Under the pieces are notes generated by a model that was not told where the DNA came from, did not search any database, and saw only the letters and a list, made by a program, of their open reading frames with translations. The translations under genes and the position numbers were made by a program. This document shows, in pieces, positions 2 to 56,424 of a stretch of 64,000 nt of DNA (positions are counted from its first letter, which is position 1; each line of letters starts with the position of its first letter). Origin of the DNA: Promethearchaeota archaeon (GTDB taxonomy: Archaea > Asgardarchaeota > Lokiarchaeia > Sigyniarchaeales > SOKP01); contig JAUWGH010000005.1 in assembly GCA_030606485.1 (NCBI GenBank), positions 260,129 to 324,128 on the forward strand, read 5' to 3'.

Positions 2-2875
2 TTTGATGCACGATTTACAAGCGTATTTTCTCCTATGTTAAGGCAAGATTTACAGTTAGTTGCTTCGGTTGCTGAGCATATGCCAAGCCCGTGGAGTGTA
101 TTTTATTATAATACATTAATTCCGAGTTTATTAGTACCCGTAGGAATATATTTCTGTCTTAAAAGAGGAAATGAAGAGGATTTTTTAATTATAATCTATG
201 TTCTCACTCTTTTCTATTTTACAGGCAGCATGATTAGAATTATTTTATTATTTGCTCCTGCAGTAGCTTTAATTGGCTCTTACGGGTTATCGAGTATTTT
301 AAAATTGTTTGGAAGTTTTATTGGTAAAGAAAAAAGTATGATAACTAGACGTAGGAAAAGACAAATAAAAACGACTATTGGAAGTTGGGAATCCTTTGGA
401 GTATATGCCATAGTCGGTTTTTTAATGTTTGCTCAAGTTTCTCACGCAGCAGATATTTCGATTAGTTCATTAGCTTACTCACAAATTACTCCAGGGGGTA
501 ATCTTCATGATTGGGAAGAAAGTATGACTTGGATTAGGACTAATTTACCTCCCGGGACTGTAGTAGTAAGCTGGTGGGATTATGGATATTGGATAACTCC
601 AATTGGTAATGCTACTACTGTTAATGATAATGCAACAATAAACCAAACACGAATAGGTGCCACAGGTATGGCATTTATGCAAACAGATGAACTAGAGAGT
701 GCTAAAATTCTACGTCACTTGAAAGCTGATTATGTTCTCGTATATTTTGGTATGCTATATACAGGCCTTGGCGGCGATGAGGGAAAATGGCCTTGGATGG
801 TTAGAATCTGTAATGATAATTATCAGTCGTATAAAAATTTTGGCTGGGAAGCTTATAATTGGAAAGAAAATAGTGTATTTGATGAATCAGAATATCAAAA
901 TTCAACTACGGGTAAATATAAAGAAAAGTGGCTTCAGAGTCAATTAGTTAGATTAATGTTTGCTGGATTACCAACTAGGCTAGAAGAAGCAGATACAAAT
1001 AAATTAGAATTTAATTACGCGGAGCAAATTGCTGGTAATCCAAGTCGGGGTATTTCCCCACGTGAACTCGACGATGGTAGATTATGGTCTGAACTTATTC
1101 CTTACCACGGTTATTATGACTTCAAAGTGTTTAAACCAATATACTTTTCTGCACAGGGATTAGTAAAATTATTTCGAGTTGATTATACTGCATTAGATTC
1201 CTCAATAGAAATTAACAATCCGAAAGTTTATGATAATGGCTTTGCCAATTTTAAATTAGTAAATACAGGAATTAAAGAGGTAACCTTAGAGAATGTATTC
1301 ATTAAAGGAGATTCTTATGATTTTACTATTGAAGATAATAACAGTCAAATTGAACCAGGAGAGGAAAAACTCGTTTGGATAGATGCCCAAAATGCAGGTT
1401 TTGAATTAAACGATATTGTTGAAATATCAGTTAGCATTGAGGCTGAAGCTCTAGAAAATCAAAAGTATACCTTTGAAAATAGTTCTACTAATATTTTAGT
1501 TGAACCAACTCCTACATATGGAATTAAAATCAATAGAGAAAACAGTATTGCTTTAATTAATGAAGATAATTCTAATGCTAGCTTTTATTTAGAAGTAGAA
1601 AATACAGGCGAAGGAATTCTTAATATAAATTCAACATCCATAAACGGAATTGAATTCAACAAAACCAATTATCAGCTAAATAATTCATTATTAAAATCAG
1701 GATCTAAAATAACAATTTATCTTCCTGAATCTCCAGTCAATAAAACTACATTAGGAGATTCAATGGACAACTTAAGTGATACGATAAGAGTAGGTACATC
1801 TGAAGGAATATTCGATGAAACAATTTTTTCTTATAATAAAAAAGATTACAAAATTTCAATAATCTCTGAAGACCGGGTACTATCTGATGAAACAGAAATC
1901 TTATTTAGTAAAAATCGAACTCAAATTCCTATAGATTTAAATAGCGCTTGTGCCTATGATAATGGAACAATTTTTATTAAAGTAAAAAACACTGGAACTA
2001 AAGTAATAGGATTAGACTCTGTATATATAGATGGAGTATCTAAAGACTTTATATCAGTTGACGATGATAATCTTCTCTCCATAGATGAGATCAAAGATCT
2101 AATAATTGATTACCCGGATATTGAGAATAATGAAGAAATTGAAATAATTATCGCAACATCTGGTTTGGATGGATATATCGTAGCTACAGACGTTGGTTAT
2201 TTATATCCAATTAGTGATTCTGCAAATTTGGCATTTGTATCAAAGTCTGATCTTAACATTACCCATGTATGGGCTAATGAAACAATTGAGATTGCAATTA
2301 AGAATACAGGAAATGCAACGATAAAACTAGATGATGTGATAATAAATGGGACGGAAATCATATCTATTGATAATATAATTTTTAATTATAACGATAAGAC
2401 ATTGGATCTCCAAGAGATTGCAATATTCTCTTTCAGCTCGACTCAATTTAAAATAAATCAATCAAATGTAGTAGAAATAAATATAACTACTGAATCTGGA
2501 ATCTCAGTAAAACAATCTTTTATAGCCGAGGTTAACCCAACATGGAATCCGGACAAATACAATATTGACATTTTAAATACATCCTCAGCAGATTATAGTG
2601 AAGTTCTATTAACACTCAATCTTAAAAATATAGGTGAAGACAATCTAATAATTGATGCAGTGTATGTAAATAACACATACATCTCGTGGAGTACTATAAC
2701 AATTGTAGATAATGTAGATCTAACTATTGAAACAGACGAGGAAATAACACTAACAATTACATTAACAGATCTTGTATCATTAATTGGACCTATTAATCCT
2801 AATGATACTCTTGAGATATTAGTTAGAACTGAAGAAGGAACCGAGGATACTCGCGTAATTACAGTTGTGGCTTAA
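2..2875 (+). CDS. aglB: Oligosaccharyltransferase AglB/STT3, 5'-partial, with long C-terminal beta-repeat tail
   Basis: Catalytic subunit of archaeal N-glycosylation, which moves a lipid-linked glycan onto Asn in N-X-S/T sequons on the outer membrane face. The frame is open to the window edge, so the first transmembrane helices lie outside. Visible are an SVAEH stretch (STT3 external-loop motif), about four hydrophobic segments, and WWDYGYW at roughly residues 180-186 counted from the first internal Met (position 35), followed by a DN-containing stretch. After the usual soluble domain, about 550 residues remain made of about five units that share an N-T/I-G core and a following V/I-x-I/V-N/D-G step, resembling CARDB-like beta sandwiches. 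This tail is much longer than in ordinary AglB. It carries many N-X-S/T sequons and may itself be glycosylated (inference). It ends in TAA with 166 nt to uvrB. The STT3 call is firm; the repeat-family name is tentative. Confidence 0.9.
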   Translation, partial: FDARFTSVFSPMLRQDLQLVASVAEHMPSPWSVFYYNTLIPSLLVPVGIYFCLKRGNEEDFLIIIYVLTLFYFTGSMIRIILLFAPAVALIGSYGLSSILKLFGSFIGKEKSMITRRRKRQIKTTIGSWESFGVYAIVGFLMFAQVSHAADISISSLAYSQITPGGNLHDWEESMTWIRTNLPPGTVVVSWWDYGYWITPIGNATTVNDNATINQTRIGATGMAFMQTDELESAKILRHLKADYVLVYFGMLYTGLGGDEGKWPWMVRICNDNYQSYKNFGWEAYNWKENSVFDESEYQNSTTGKYKEKWLQSQLVRLMFAGLPTRLEEADTNKLEFNYAEQIAGNPSRGISPRELDDGRLWSELIPYHGYYDFKVFKPIYFSAQGLVKLFRVDYTALDSSIEINNPKVYDNGFANFKLVNTGIKEVTLENVFIKGDSYDFTIEDNNSQIEPGEEKLVWIDAQNAGFELNDIVEISVSIEAEALENQKYTFENSSTNILVEPTPTYGIKINRENSIALINEDNSNASFYLEVENTGEGILNINSTSINGIEFNKTNYQLNNSLLKSGSKITIYLPESPVNKTTLGDSMDNLSDTIRVGTSEGIFDETIFSYNKKDYKISIISEDRVLSDETEILFSKNRTQIPIDLNSACAYDNGTIFIKVKNTGTKVIGLDSVYIDGVSKDFISVDDDNLLSIDEIKDLIIDYPDIENNEEIEIIIATSGLDGYIVATDVGYLYPISDSANLAFVSKSDLNITHVWANETIEIAIKNTGNATIKLDDVIINGTEIISIDNIIFNYNDKTLDLQEIAIFSFSSTQFKINQSNVVEINITTESGISVKQSFIAEVNPTWNPDKYNIDILNTSSADYSEVLLTLNLKNIGEDNLIIDAVYVNNTYISWSTITIVDNVDLTIETDEEITLTITLTDLVSLIGPINPNDTLEILVRTEEGTEDTRVITVVA

Positions 2876-27564: not shown

Positions 27565-27825
27565 ATTTTAGAAAAAAATGTTAATAATTTACTTAAAAAA
27601 CTAATTATAAAAATAATTTTATGTTTAATCTTTTATCTTTAATCCCAAGAACTTCTTTTTTTACTGATCAATTGTCTCAATTATTATTAATATCTTTTAA
27701 AGAGTGATTAAAATATATTAATATCATTATATAATATAATCAGAAAAAATTTAGTTTTAAAATTAGTATAAAAATTAAATAACATTAAAAAAATATTAAA
27801 AATATTAAAAAAATGATTGTATATT

Positions 27826-29055
27826 ATGAGTAAAGTGTCCAAAGAGTCTATTGCACCATTTTTAAAATATTTTGATAAAAAATTTCTTAATCTCAAAGAA
27901 ATTAAAACAATTGGGGATTTAGCAAAATTACCAATATTTGCGTATAAATTTTTCACTAAAAATGATACAAAAATCATTTCAAAACTATTTGACATTAATG
28001 TTATTGAAGATTTAAGTAAATTAGATAAAGAAAAACCATTTGACCAATTCTTTTCTCTTGATGCCACCGAAGATCCAATTAAACAAGCTAAAATCGTTGA
28101 AAAAATGAGAAAACAAATTGATATACTTACTGCAAAAATCCCTAACCTTGATATAAAATTAAAGAAAGGGATAATAATAAGTGATGTTATTGTTCGAGTA
28201 GCGAAAAAGAAAGAACCGATTAAGAAGAAAGAAACTAAAATTATTTGCGTGGGACTAGAAAATGCAGGTAAGACGGCTATATTGAGTAGATTTGGAGGAC
28301 GTTTAGGAATCCAAGAATTAAGTAAATTAAAACCTACAAAAAAAGTGAAGAGAAGAGTAGTAGAGACGAAAGATCTCACCCTTCTCATATGGGATTTCGG
28401 AGGCCAGGAAATATATCGAAAGATGTATTTAAAAGAACCCGAGAAATATTTTTTCCAAACACAACTTGTATTATATGTGATAGATGTACAAGACCCGGAT
28501 AAATTTGACGAATCTTTTGAATATTTCTCCCAAATTTTAGAAATATTTAAGATTTTTGAGGAAAAACCGTATTTTTTGATTTTCATTCATAAAAGCGACC
28601 CGGATTTACGCGAAACTCCTGAATTTCAATTAAATGTTGGTATAGCCAAGGTAGGGATAAATGATCTATTTAAAGAGCGATATATGGAGTATGAAGTTTT
28701 TACAAGTTCAATTTACGATCTTATTAGTTCAGAACCAAAATTTGCAAGATTTCTCAAAGACGTACTAAGAGACCAACAATCTTTAACAAATCCAACCTTA
28801 GAAAAGGTAGAAGGTCTTGGGAAAATACTGGACAGCACTCTAACCGCAGTTATTCGGCTCTCTGAAAATGTAATGGTTGAATTTGATGGAATATATAAGA
28901 GATTTGAAACTCTAGAAAATCAATTCAAGGCGGGTTTGTCAGCTCCACCACCAGAACAACCCAAAGCCACCGAAACTGATTCCCAAAGTACTCGAACGAC
29001 AGTATTAAATGAATTAAAGGAATTATTTCAAAAAAGAAAGAAAGTAAATTATTAA
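27826..29055 (+). CDS. Arf-like small GTPase with helical N-terminal and coiled C-terminal extensions
   Basis: Eukaryote-like small GTPase. The G domain occupies about residues 135-310: P-loop GLENAGKT (143-150), switch II WDFGGQE (189-195) and HKSD (255-258) in place of NKxD. WDxGGQE with GLxNAGKT is the Arf/Sar/Rag-side pattern. The N-terminal 120 residues contain two similar helix-hairpin segments (TIGDLAKL and VIEDLSKL), resembling small HhH domains. The C-terminal 80 residues hold a short coiled coil and a Pro/Gln/Thr-rich linker. There is no lipidation signal at either end. ATG 27826 is preferred over an in-frame TTG at 27817. It probably acts as a molecular switch; partners may include the Roadblock and longin-like proteins of this window (inference). 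Confidence 0.88.
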   Translation: MSKVSKESIAPFLKYFDKKFLNLKEIKTIGDLAKLPIFAYKFFTKNDTKIISKLFDINVIEDLSKLDKEKPFDQFFSLDATEDPIKQAKIVEKMRKQIDILTAKIPNLDIKLKKGIIISDVIVRVAKKKEPIKKKETKIICVGLENAGKTAILSRFGGRLGIQELSKLKPTKKVKRRVVETKDLTLLIWDFGGQEIYRKMYLKEPEKYFFQTQLVLYVIDVQDPDKFDESFEYFSQILEIFKIFEEKPYFLIFIHKSDPDLRETPEFQLNVGIAKVGINDLFKERYMEYEVFTSSIYDLISSEPKFARFLKDVLRDQQSLTNPTLEKVEGLGKILDSTLTAVIRLSENVMVEFDGIYKRFETLENQFKAGLSAPPPEQPKATETDSQSTRTTVLNELKELFQKRKKVNY

Positions 29056-34385: not shown

Positions 34386-36038
34386 ATGAGAATAATGAAT
34401 AAAGATTCCATCAAGTACTGGCTAAGAAAAACATTTATAAGAGACATAAACTTGCCAAAGAATTCATTTATTTATTTATTGCTCTCTTTTTTTGCAATTA
34501 TAATAATCACCGAAGTTCTTCTATTCAAATATGTTGTGTTAACTGGGGAGGAATTTGCTTTAGATCTTGAGAGAATCACTATATTAATTGTGGTCTCTCT
34601 CAGTTTTCTTGCTTCTGGTTGTCTTGTTGATAAAATAAAGAATAAAACAAGGTTTTATAATATAACCTTACTAATTTGCATAATAGGACTGTTCTTAACT
34701 AATTTTACTGGAACCATTTTTGATTATATTGGTTTATTTATTATACTTCTTTCATTACCACAACTGGTCGTACTATGGTTTACAACATTAATTCATGAAA
34801 CAAATATCCTTAATAGAGGAAGAATAACGGCTTTCCTGATAATATCATGTTCCATTTTAGGTTTGATTGGAATTGCTTTTATATTCTTTGAGTTCCTTTA
34901 TCCCTATCTTTTCATTGTAGAAACTGTTCTTTTAATCATTATTGCCTTATATTCAAGATCTTATAAGTACATAGAAACTGAAGAAAGACTCATATCTGAT
35001 GAAAAATATATGAAAATTATTTTTGAGAAACATTTTTTTCGATATTCTTCAAGTTTTACTGTATTAAGTTTTATTTTAGGTGATTTACTCGCACGTTATG
35101 GTTTTGACTTGGATATCATAGCATTCTCAATCACTTCTTTTTTTTATTTACTGGCGGCTGGCTGGTTTTTAGATAACATTGGTCGAAAATATGCAATTGT
35201 CTTGGGAATTTTAGTTACTTCATTTTTCCTTATATCCTATGGTTCATTTGTTGAAGCAGAAGTAATATATGGCATACCAAAAAAAATCTATCTCTCAATA
35301 CATTATGGCTTCTCAATTACACCCCTTTTGCTTGCCATTTTTACAGTGTCCGGAGATTTTTCAACAGAAAGAGGGAACTTAAAATATAGAGGGCGAATTA
35401 ATGGACTTCTAATATCTTTAATGTTCATTGGCATTGTCATTGGATATGTTTTTAGTAAATGGATAAATGGATTATATAACGCCAACCCCGATTTGAATCT
35501 GATAATACCTGAGTTCCCTGACCGGATAAATTCATTTCTTCTAGTTATTCTTCTCGTTTGGATGATGGGAATGAAAGAATTCTTAGTCTCTAAAGAACTT
35601 CAATGGGCTTCCACTATTAAAAATCTTTATTTATTCAACTATGATGGCATTTGTCTTTATTTTCATAACTTAGAAAAGGATGAAAAATCCAAAATAAAAA
35701 TTGAAAAATTTGAATTGGACGAAGATCTAATTTCTGGCGGTCTTACTGGAGTAATCACCATAATCTCTGAAATAACAAAGAGTAAAAAACAACTTAGAAA
35801 AATTGAAAAAGAAGGAGTAAATCTATTTTTTTCTTATGGAAAATATCATATCGCCGCTTTAATCTCAAGCATGGATTTACCAATTTTACTGAAAAAACTC
35901 GATGATTTTTCAAAAGAATTTGAACAAAAATTTGAGAAAGAACTGAAAAATTTTAAAGGACATATTAATCCTTTTAATCCAACTAACTATCTTGTAAAAA
36001 AATATTTTGTCCAAAAATATTCAGTTTTTATGGAATAA
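34386..36038 (+). CDS. MFS-type membrane protein with C-terminal longin/Roadblock-like domain
   Basis: About twelve transmembrane segments fill residues 25-400 with MFS character, including the loop motif LDNIGRKYAIVLG after the seventh or eighth helix. Residues 405-550 are soluble and cytoplasmic by the positive-inside pattern. They read as strand-strand-helix-strands-helices: LYLFNYDGICLYF, then LDEDLISGGLTGVITIISEI, then GVNLFFSYGKYHIAALIS, then a long helix. The same layout and the E/D-x-x-I-S/Y-G-L core occur at the C terminus of the 7TM protein at 55366. It resembles longin/Roadblock domains, which in Asgards and eukaryotes act on small GTPases. Transported substrate, if any, is unknown. 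Confidence 0.78.
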   Translation: MRIMNKDSIKYWLRKTFIRDINLPKNSFIYLLLSFFAIIIITEVLLFKYVVLTGEEFALDLERITILIVVSLSFLASGCLVDKIKNKTRFYNITLLICIIGLFLTNFTGTIFDYIGLFIILLSLPQLVVLWFTTLIHETNILNRGRITAFLIISCSILGLIGIAFIFFEFLYPYLFIVETVLLIIIALYSRSYKYIETEERLISDEKYMKIIFEKHFFRYSSSFTVLSFILGDLLARYGFDLDIIAFSITSFFYLLAAGWFLDNIGRKYAIVLGILVTSFFLISYGSFVEAEVIYGIPKKIYLSIHYGFSITPLLLAIFTVSGDFSTERGNLKYRGRINGLLISLMFIGIVIGYVFSKWINGLYNANPDLNLIIPEFPDRINSFLLVILLVWMMGMKEFLVSKELQWASTIKNLYLFNYDGICLYFHNLEKDEKSKIKIEKFELDEDLISGGLTGVITIISEITKSKKQLRKIEKEGVNLFFSYGKYHIAALISSMDLPILLKKLDDFSKEFEQKFEKELKNFKGHINPFNPTNYLVKKYFVQKYSVFME

Positions 36039-39078: not shown

Positions 39079-39444
39079 TTAAATTAATAGGGCAATCTTC
39101 TGAGCAGATCGTTTACAATCTAACATTATTAGTCCGAGTTTCACATCAACCGTTGTTGAGACCGTTAGAACGGCGTTTTCCCCACAGTACATAACTAATA
39201 AAATGCCATTTGTCCCCCTTACAAGGATATGTTCAAGGATACCCTTGTTTAACTCCATTGCGGCACGCTCGCCAAGTGAAATAATAGCTGCCGTCATTGC
39301 GGCTATGCGTGTTTCATCAATCCCTGCCTCTAAAGCCGAAGCGATTGGAAGTCCCTCCGCACTAACGATAGCTGCAGCTTTAATCTCAGGAATGGATGAA
39401 AGCAATTGTCTCAGAATAGAATCTAATGTTTCGATACTGTCCAT
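39079..39444 (-). CDS. Roadblock/LC7 domain protein
   Basis: Single-domain Roadblock protein (121 aa), the fold of MglB, Ragulator/LAMTOR subunits and dynein light chain LC7. Typical features are the helix IETLDSILRQLLSSIPEIKA, the strand turn AAIVSAEGLPIASAL, the long helix AAMTAAIISLGERAAMEL, then strands EHILVRGTNGILLVMYCGEN and a final helix. The family forms dimers and commonly serves as a platform or activating protein for small GTPases, in Asgards and eukaryotes especially Rag/Arf-like ones. The obvious candidate partner is the Arf-like GTPase at 27826, but distance makes this inference. It is divergent from rpo7. Confidence 0.93.
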   Translation of the reverse strand: MDSIETLDSILRQLLSSIPEIKAAAIVSAEGLPIASALEAGIDETRIAAMTAAIISLGERAAMELNKGILEHILVRGTNGILLVMYCGENAVLTVSTTVDVKLGLIMLDCKRSAQKIALLI

Positions 39445-55365: not shown

Positions 55366-56424
55366 ATGGCACTAAATTACTCGCCAGAATTTTATTGGTA
55401 TCTCATAGGTGCAATATTTTGCTTAATAGCCACTATCATAATTGTATGGAATATCTTTTCAAAAAAAAATAAGACCCACTTTTACTATTTTTTTTCAATA
55501 TTAAGTATTTCCATTTTCTACTTTTTTACAAGTTTCTCATTCCTGTTTTTAAGTATAGATTTATATCGAGCGAGTTGTTTCGCAGCTACAATTAGTACAA
55601 TCTTTTTATTTTTATTTATCGACTTTACATCTCGTGAATCAGTAAGTCCTATTAATATAGCATTAATAAGTCTTTTAAGTGGGATGGTATTTATCTTAGT
55701 TTGGCAAGAGAATTCCATTATATTCTATGACGGATTCGGATATCCATCTATTAAAACATCGGGAATATTTACGGTTGTTGGAAATTTAGTTTTATTGTTA
55801 AATGTGTTGTTCTATCTTTATTGGGCTTTAAGAATTTCAATAAAAGCACCCAAAAAGTTAAGAAAATCATCATTAATCTTTTTATGTGGTACGCTACTTT
55901 TATTAAGTGGTTTTTTTATTTGGAGTGCTAAATATCTATTAATGGCTCCAATTGGTATATTTTTTACTGGGACAGGTATGTTGGTTTCAATAATTTCATG
56001 GGTAAAAGAACCAAAAATCCTTTATATATTACCATTTAAAGCCTATAGATTAATCGTTCTTCACGGGAAATCGGGTGTTCCATTGTTTAATTACAATTGG
56101 GTGGAATATAAAGTGGATGAAGCTATTTACTCAGGCCTTCTACATGCACTAAATAATGCAATACAAATCCTAAAAAGGGGCTCAATAAAACATATTTTAT
56201 TAACAGAAGGAGTTTTAATTATTAAAAAATCGGAAAATGTTTTAGTTGGATTAATTGCTGATAAAACATCAAAATTTTTGACTAATTGTATCAATAATTT
56301 CACAGATTCATTTGAAAAAAAATATAATTCAGTTTTAAGTGATTGGAACCATCAAACTGATCAATTTACTTCAGCAAAGGAATTAATTGAAAGACATTTT
56401 GCAAATGTTCCATCTCACTTATAG
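55366..56424 (+). CDS. 7TM membrane protein with C-terminal longin/Roadblock-like domain
   Basis: About seven transmembrane helices (residues 10-215) in the manner of the 7TM sensor region found at the N terminus of some histidine kinases. A cytoplasmic domain of about 135 residues follows: strand YRLIVLHGKSGVPLFNY, helix DEAIYSGLLHALNNAIQIL, strands IKHILLTEGVLIIKKSEN and VLVGLIAD, then a long helix. The order, the S-G-L core and the E-G-V/N-L strand match the tail of the MFS protein at 34386. No kinase or HAMP domain is present. ATG 55366 preferred; TTG 55354 is in frame. Probably a membrane receptor or GTPase docking protein (inference). Confidence 0.75.
   Translation: MALNYSPEFYWYLIGAIFCLIATIIIVWNIFSKKNKTHFYYFFSILSISIFYFFTSFSFLFLSIDLYRASCFAATISTIFLFLFIDFTSRESVSPINIALISLLSGMVFILVWQENSIIFYDGFGYPSIKTSGIFTVVGNLVLLLNVLFYLYWALRISIKAPKKLRKSSLIFLCGTLLLLSGFFIWSAKYLLMAPIGIFFTGTGMLVSIISWVKEPKILYILPFKAYRLIVLHGKSGVPLFNYNWVEYKVDEAIYSGLLHALNNAIQILKRGSIKHILLTEGVLIIKKSENVLVGLIADKTSKFLTNCINNFTDSFEKKYNSVLSDWNHQTDQFTSAKELIERHFANVPSHL

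Follow-up and report, generated by a model that had tools for sequence, protein, structure and literature searches.

Predicted seven-helix and MFS-like membrane proteins of a lokiarchaeial genome share a longin domain and may belong to a modular receptor family

The window, as we call the whole 64,000-nucleotide stretch of Lokiarchaeia DNA analysed here, encodes two predicted membrane proteins that end in the same domain: a seven-helix (7TM) protein and an MFS-like protein (Table 1). The mechanical ORF of the former opens at a TTG codon (55354), upstream of the ATG start given in the table, and the family-wide start motif M-x-L-N-W/Y supports the 352-aa frame as a real ORF. The same window also encodes an Arf/Rag-type GTPase, a roadblock protein, a leucine-rich-repeat protein and a large protein whose N-terminus appears GTPase-like by eye, lacks a P-loop and is followed by helical repeats.

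Table 1. Features of the window and of loci mentioned in the text. Positions are those of the window unless a locus is named; residues are those of the 7TM protein.
Feature	Position	Strand	Basis or remark
7TM-longin protein, 352 aa	55366..56424	+	ATG start at 55366, conserved in family
Seven-helix membrane module, residues 7-214	55384..56007	+	AlphaFold model; positive-inside rule
TM helices, residues 7-33, 36-61, 64-90, 95-112, 134-160, 163-187, 191-214			AlphaFold model
Joint EPKILYILPF between TM7 and longin, residues 215-224	56008..56037	+	conserved residues
Longin domain of 7TM protein, residues 225-349	56038..56412	+	order b-b-a-b-b-b-a-a; profiles and model
DFTSRE, residues 86-91	55621..55638		cytoplasmic end of TM3
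MFS-like membrane protein with longin tail, 550 aa	34386..36038	+	MFS_1 E=1.6e-5, under Pfam cut-off
Longin domain of MFS-like protein	35592..36014	+	profile comparisons
Protein of 1091 aa	23257..26532		Pfam: weak TPR-like matches only
Arf/Rag-type GTPase	27817..29055		130-aa N-terminal extension
Roadblock protein	39079..39444
Leucine-rich-repeat protein, 740 aa	59958..62180
Single-pass longin receptor, 1318 aa (L042)	G000:C10:640925-644878	-
The same receptor with its Rab-like GTPase	L042 6297-10879 = G000:C10:640296-644878	-
Protein of 751 aa, about 13 helices, longin tail	L034 6132-8384 (G000:C8)		no Pfam match
RelA/SpoT, TPR, SLOG (LSDAT) and longin in one protein	L047 7970-10519 (G000:C1)
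7TM-longin-histidine kinase proteins	L115 2081-3979; L116 2271-4154; L195 1162-3042; L196 2855-4414

The predicted topology of the 7TM protein, with the N-terminus outside and the C-terminus in the cytoplasm, follows the positive-inside rule in 28 of 28 family members. The joint that leads from TM7 into the cytoplasmic domain is strongly conserved: E215, P216, K217, L219 and L222 are invariant in all 38 alignment rows, and P223 and F224 are kept in 37 of them. At the cytoplasmic end of TM3, DFTSRE forms an acidic-x-x-x-x-E pattern (E91 in 34 of 37 rows), whose likeness to the D/ERY position of GPCRs is superficial and probably a coincidence. The MFS-like protein matches MFS_1 below threshold (24.5 bits, cut-off 33.4), which points to a divergent MFS fold, and it has 22 full-length orthologues in the fetched related loci (E below 1e-180).

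The earlier note, made from the sequence alone, had proposed that the two proteins carry one cytoplasmic domain on unrelated membrane parts and had staked the proposal on a profile comparison of the two tails. We built the tail families separately, from 30 7TM proteins of related genomes and from 23 MFS proteins including the window's own, and aligned tails and membrane parts apart. The comparison gave significant similarity: hhalign matched the two tail families (30 and 23 rows) over 121 columns with a probability of 99% and E=4.4e-18, and it assigned the membrane parts a probability of 0.3%, so that both halves of the proposal were borne out. The paired motifs described in the tails are also present (DEAIYSGLL and DEDLISGGL; TEGVLII and KEGVNLF). 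An HMM from the 7TM tails alone recovered the MFS tail of the window (2.8e-12) as well as longin-GTPase fusions (2.9e-8), and one from the MFS tails alone recovered the window's 7TM tail at 3.6e-8. The likeness is invisible pairwise, since plain BLASTP of the two tails found no match, and this blank would fit an artefact of low complexity or of generic a/b composition. That reading, to which we give next to no credence, was rejected on the independent profile-profile E-value, on the reciprocal HMM matches, and on the hits of the tail HMMs among 303 ORFs, all of which were already known longin members.

On the evidence of profiles and of a predicted fold, the common domain is a longin. In the AlphaFold model (38 sequences; mean pLDDT 81 over the whole chain, pTM 0.66), residues 226-345 form strands and helices in the longin order b-b-a-b-b-b-a(-a), with pLDDT of about 58-89 over residues 225-345. 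Structural alignment of residues 225-349 matched longins at Z 12-14, with Sec22b at Z 14.3 (2.8 Å, 123 aa) and SRX from the SRb-GTP/SRX complex at Z 12.2 (2.0 Å, 102 aa), and further matches were Fuzzy, VAMP7, Ykt6 and AP-3 sigma. The longin fold is shared with SRX of SRP receptor alpha, TRAPP Bet5/Trs23, Mon1-Ccz1 and Fuzzy-Inturned; the closest structural matches to the 7TM tail include SRX, which partners SRb-GTP, and Fuzzy-Inturned, which partners Rab23. By sequence, a profile of ten home-genome tails searched against the PDB matched AP-4 sigma and TRAPP Trs23 best (E 0.0025-0.0029), then MON1, AP-3 sigma and zeta-COP. GTPase-fused members match Pfam Longin at 1.7e-5 and Fuz_longin at 6.4e-5, and one 7TM family member matches Fuz_longin_1 at 0.016. 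A direct match of the tail to a curated longin family would ease annotation but is no requirement of the fold. Because the 7TM tail by itself matched no longin family in Pfam and gave only chance matches in the PDB sequence search, its identity rests on the predicted fold and on a profile chain through relatives, from the 7TM-tail HMM to the longin-GTPase fusions to Pfam Longin.

The home genome (3.75 Mb, 13 contigs) contains this domain at 21 places at E<=5e-5. Eight of these longins are on membrane proteins of several unrelated kinds. Two are on the 7TM and MFS proteins of the window, two on further 7TM-type proteins with membrane parts that escape the 7TM profile, one on a protein of ~13 helices, and three on giant single-pass proteins (1318-1553 aa) in which a long outside part and one helix precede the longin. 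Beyond these eight, two are fused to small GTPases of Arf/Roc type, and the remainder include small soluble proteins. Many genomes of the family encode ORFs that equal the 13-helix protein in length and match the longin, and one home-genome longin is combined with RelA/SpoT, TPR and SLOG modules (Table 1).

The architecture is widely conserved in Asgard archaea, as judged by profile searches. Among named genomes, Candidatus Lokiarchaeota/Lokiarchaeia MAGs are the nearest, with 86-95% protein identity. The window protein as query matched all 58 relatives, in some cases solely by its longin, and a single relative's genome can have up to about 30 matches. In a wider search, the full-length 7TM-longin profile matched 106 of 195 Asgard genomes across many families, with near-full-length rows in families f1, f2, f4, f6-f8, f11, f15, f21, f23 and f26-f28; the longin profile itself matches 193 of the 195. 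A two-peptide-pattern scan of 84,980 species, which reaches close relatives only and says nothing on absence elsewhere, returned 40 loci, 39 from Lokiarchaeota/Lokiarchaeia and one on a Pacearchaeota-labelled contig. The latter (L177, 3.8 kb), which carries a 7TM-longin gene, is likely mis-binned Asgard DNA. At L118, L119 and L120, 7TM-longin genes stand in tandem pairs, as in expanding receptor families.

In related genomes, this 7TM module precedes a range of predicted outputs: longin, longin-HK, PAS-HK, HK-REC, longin-wHTH and Zn-ribbon. A PAS-histidine kinase takes the place of the longin at L109, L110, L112, L192, L193 and L194 (with an additional C-terminal receiver-like part at L112 and L194), and a zinc-ribbon tail does so at L111 and L113. 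Because close relatives have a histidine kinase in place of the longin or after it, the 7TM module is best described as a swappable sensor. The suggestion that it resembles the 7TM sensor regions of kinases thus held up, the window protein as single query reaching the forms with PAS-histidine kinases at E about 4e-14. A maximum-likelihood tree of only the 7TM part unites kinase forms with zinc-ribbon forms in one supported clade (97/91) next to the longin forms; the longin-kinase forms fall in a separate clade. The tree is midpoint-rooted and so proves no order of appearance for the kinase and longin outputs; that longin forms are far more widespread suggests that the longin output is old.

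The module is distinct from the kinase sensors catalogued as HisKA_7TM (PF16927). The window protein does not match this family, nor does any protein of the home genome, and of 12 7TM family members only one reaches its profile (E 1.5e-4); the true HisKA_7TM kinases of related genomes belong to a different 7TM subfamily. On 7TMR-DISM_7TM (PF07695), the window's 7TM part scores 0.86. The 7TM sensor histidine kinases of both types resemble the window protein in having an N-terminal seven-helix sensor and an exchangeable cytoplasmic output, and differ in that the output here is a longin.

Fold comparison of the 7TM part (residues 1-217) with class C GPCRs gave Z 11.8-13.2 over 201-216 residues (mGlu5: Z 13.2, 209 aa, 3.9 Å), values that helical bundles reach by arrangement alone, and Pfam scans of the 7TM protein returned no GPCR family. 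We note the likeness in fold and make no claim on it. Class C GPCRs share with the 7TM protein the seven helices, the outside N-terminus and, presumably, a GTPase output; identity is 4-14%, however, the longin output is covalently attached here, and the partner would be a Rab/Arf-like GTPase rather than a heterotrimeric G protein. Because alkaline ceramidase 3 (ACER3) is among the top fold matches (Z 14.3), we considered a CREST/PAQR-type hydrolase and rejected it, as the TM part shows no conserved His/Asp/Ser set.

In the 7TM-longin-histidine kinase proteins at L115, L116, L195 and L196, the longin lies between 7TM module and kinase, in the slot that PAS occupies at L109, L110 and L193/L194, and for this reason it may act in relay or sensing and not as a GTPase platform. 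The longin would then be a PAS-like relay, or a cytoplasmic ligand-sensing or dimerisation domain, that gates the 7TM or MFS part or signals to separate partners, for instance histidine kinases, and small GTPases would play no part. Longin, PAS and GAF are placed in one structural superfamily by the review PMC4917890, which fits such a role, as does the lack of GTPase neighbours beyond chance beside 7TM-longin genes (1 found, 4.8 expected at genome density). The closest solved folds and sequence families, however, are longins of SNARE, TRAPP, AP and Fuzzy/Mon1 type, fusions of this domain to small GTPases exist, and most family members end in the longin or in a short extension after it, leaving no kinase to relay to. 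We regard this role as unlikely, though still the strongest competitor to a GTPase-directed one, and the histidine kinase behind the longin in some members implies that the output is not always, or not only, a GTPase.

The proposed link to small GTPases draws on the longin-GTPase fusions of the home genome and on a sister receptor. A Rab-like GTPase gene lies about 57 bp downstream of the gene for the 1318-aa single-pass longin protein, and this adjacency, which also argues against a purely PAS-like function, is kept in 4 of 4 genus orthologues examined, including those of G002, G003 and G004 (L203-L205). Of 19 longin loci in the home genome, which has 57 Roc/Ras-type GTPase matches, 11 have a GTPase gene within 10 kb, where 5.1 would be expected (P 0.004). 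Three distances were compared; at the other two, 1.5 and 5 kb, the proximity was not significant, and the signal is weak. Longin domains in eukaryotes also have non-GTPase roles. As platforms for small GTPases they are described in PMC10933270 and references there. The earlier note had seen in the two proteins a family of membrane receptors with a common GTPase-type output; the shared domain did turn out to link a larger family of membrane proteins, whereas the tail itself is no GTPase and some members carry a histidine kinase.

The breadth of carriers, from 7TM, MFS and 13-TM proteins to giant single-pass ones, would also suit a longin that tags proteins for sorting, for localisation or for membrane remodelling, in the manner of longin SNAREs and of AP and COP subunits, in which case the 7TM and MFS proteins would be cargo, not receptors. 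Sec22b, Ykt6, VAMP7 and AP sigma chains among the fold matches fit this reading, but an invariant linker connects the tail to the 7TM part, in contrast to a loose tag, the kinase outputs of the same 7TM module mark a sensor, and Lokiarchaeum is reported to be without SNARE motifs (PMC4917890). We consider a tag improbable, more so than a PAS-like relay.

On balance, we favour, as a fairly probable reading, that the 7TM-longin protein belongs to a modular family of Asgard membrane receptors and acts through its longin on a small GTPase. A ligand or membrane signal would shift the seven-helix bundle, and the shift would pass through TM7 and the EPKxLYILPF linker to the longin, which, probably dimerised or paired with another longin or a roadblock protein, may recruit one of the cell's many small GTPases or change its nucleotide state. 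The MFS-longin protein, a putative receptor or regulated transporter, would use the same route with a transporter-like input.

No eukaryotic longin that serves as platform or partner of a GTPase is, to our knowledge, attached as a cytoplasmic tail to a 7TM receptor or an MFS protein. None of the papers found, in a search that reached few subscription papers and preprints, describes receptors of the 7TM, MFS or single-pass kind with a longin. In the accessible text of two studies (PMC4917890, PMC10933270), Lokiarchaeum has 41 longin-like domains, five of them fused to Arf-like GTPases, and the latter reports crystallography and structure prediction of Asgard GTPase, roadblock and longin proteins. 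These longins are of the same domain class, and longin-GTPase fusions occur in our home genome too, but the ones described there are soluble or GTPase-fused rather than tails of 7TM, MFS or single-pass proteins; the words 'transmembrane' and 'receptor' are absent from the text of PMC10933270. Asgard Vps28-C/adaptin-appendage/longin proteins with Ig-like and TPR domains, for which small-GTPase activation has been suggested by the authors (PMC10936438), likewise combine longin with other modules, but are ESCRT-associated and neither 7TM nor MFS.

Taken further, a covalently attached longin would let a large class of Asgard transmembrane receptors relay signals from outside to small GTPases of the Ras superfamily, the receptors being kinase-type 7TM sensors in which a GTPase-regulating domain has replaced the kinase. 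Such a prokaryotic route from 7TM sensor to small GTPase would be an analogue, and perhaps a forerunner, of eukaryotic receptor-GTPase signalling; on this idea we stand evenly divided. Asgard genomes encode dozens of small GTPases and longin or roadblock proteins. If longins hang from sensors, a signal received at the cell surface could plausibly act upstream of these GTPases, and two-component and GTPase signalling would draw on common sensor modules. The long-standing question of what Asgard small GTPases did before internal membranes would then become directly testable.
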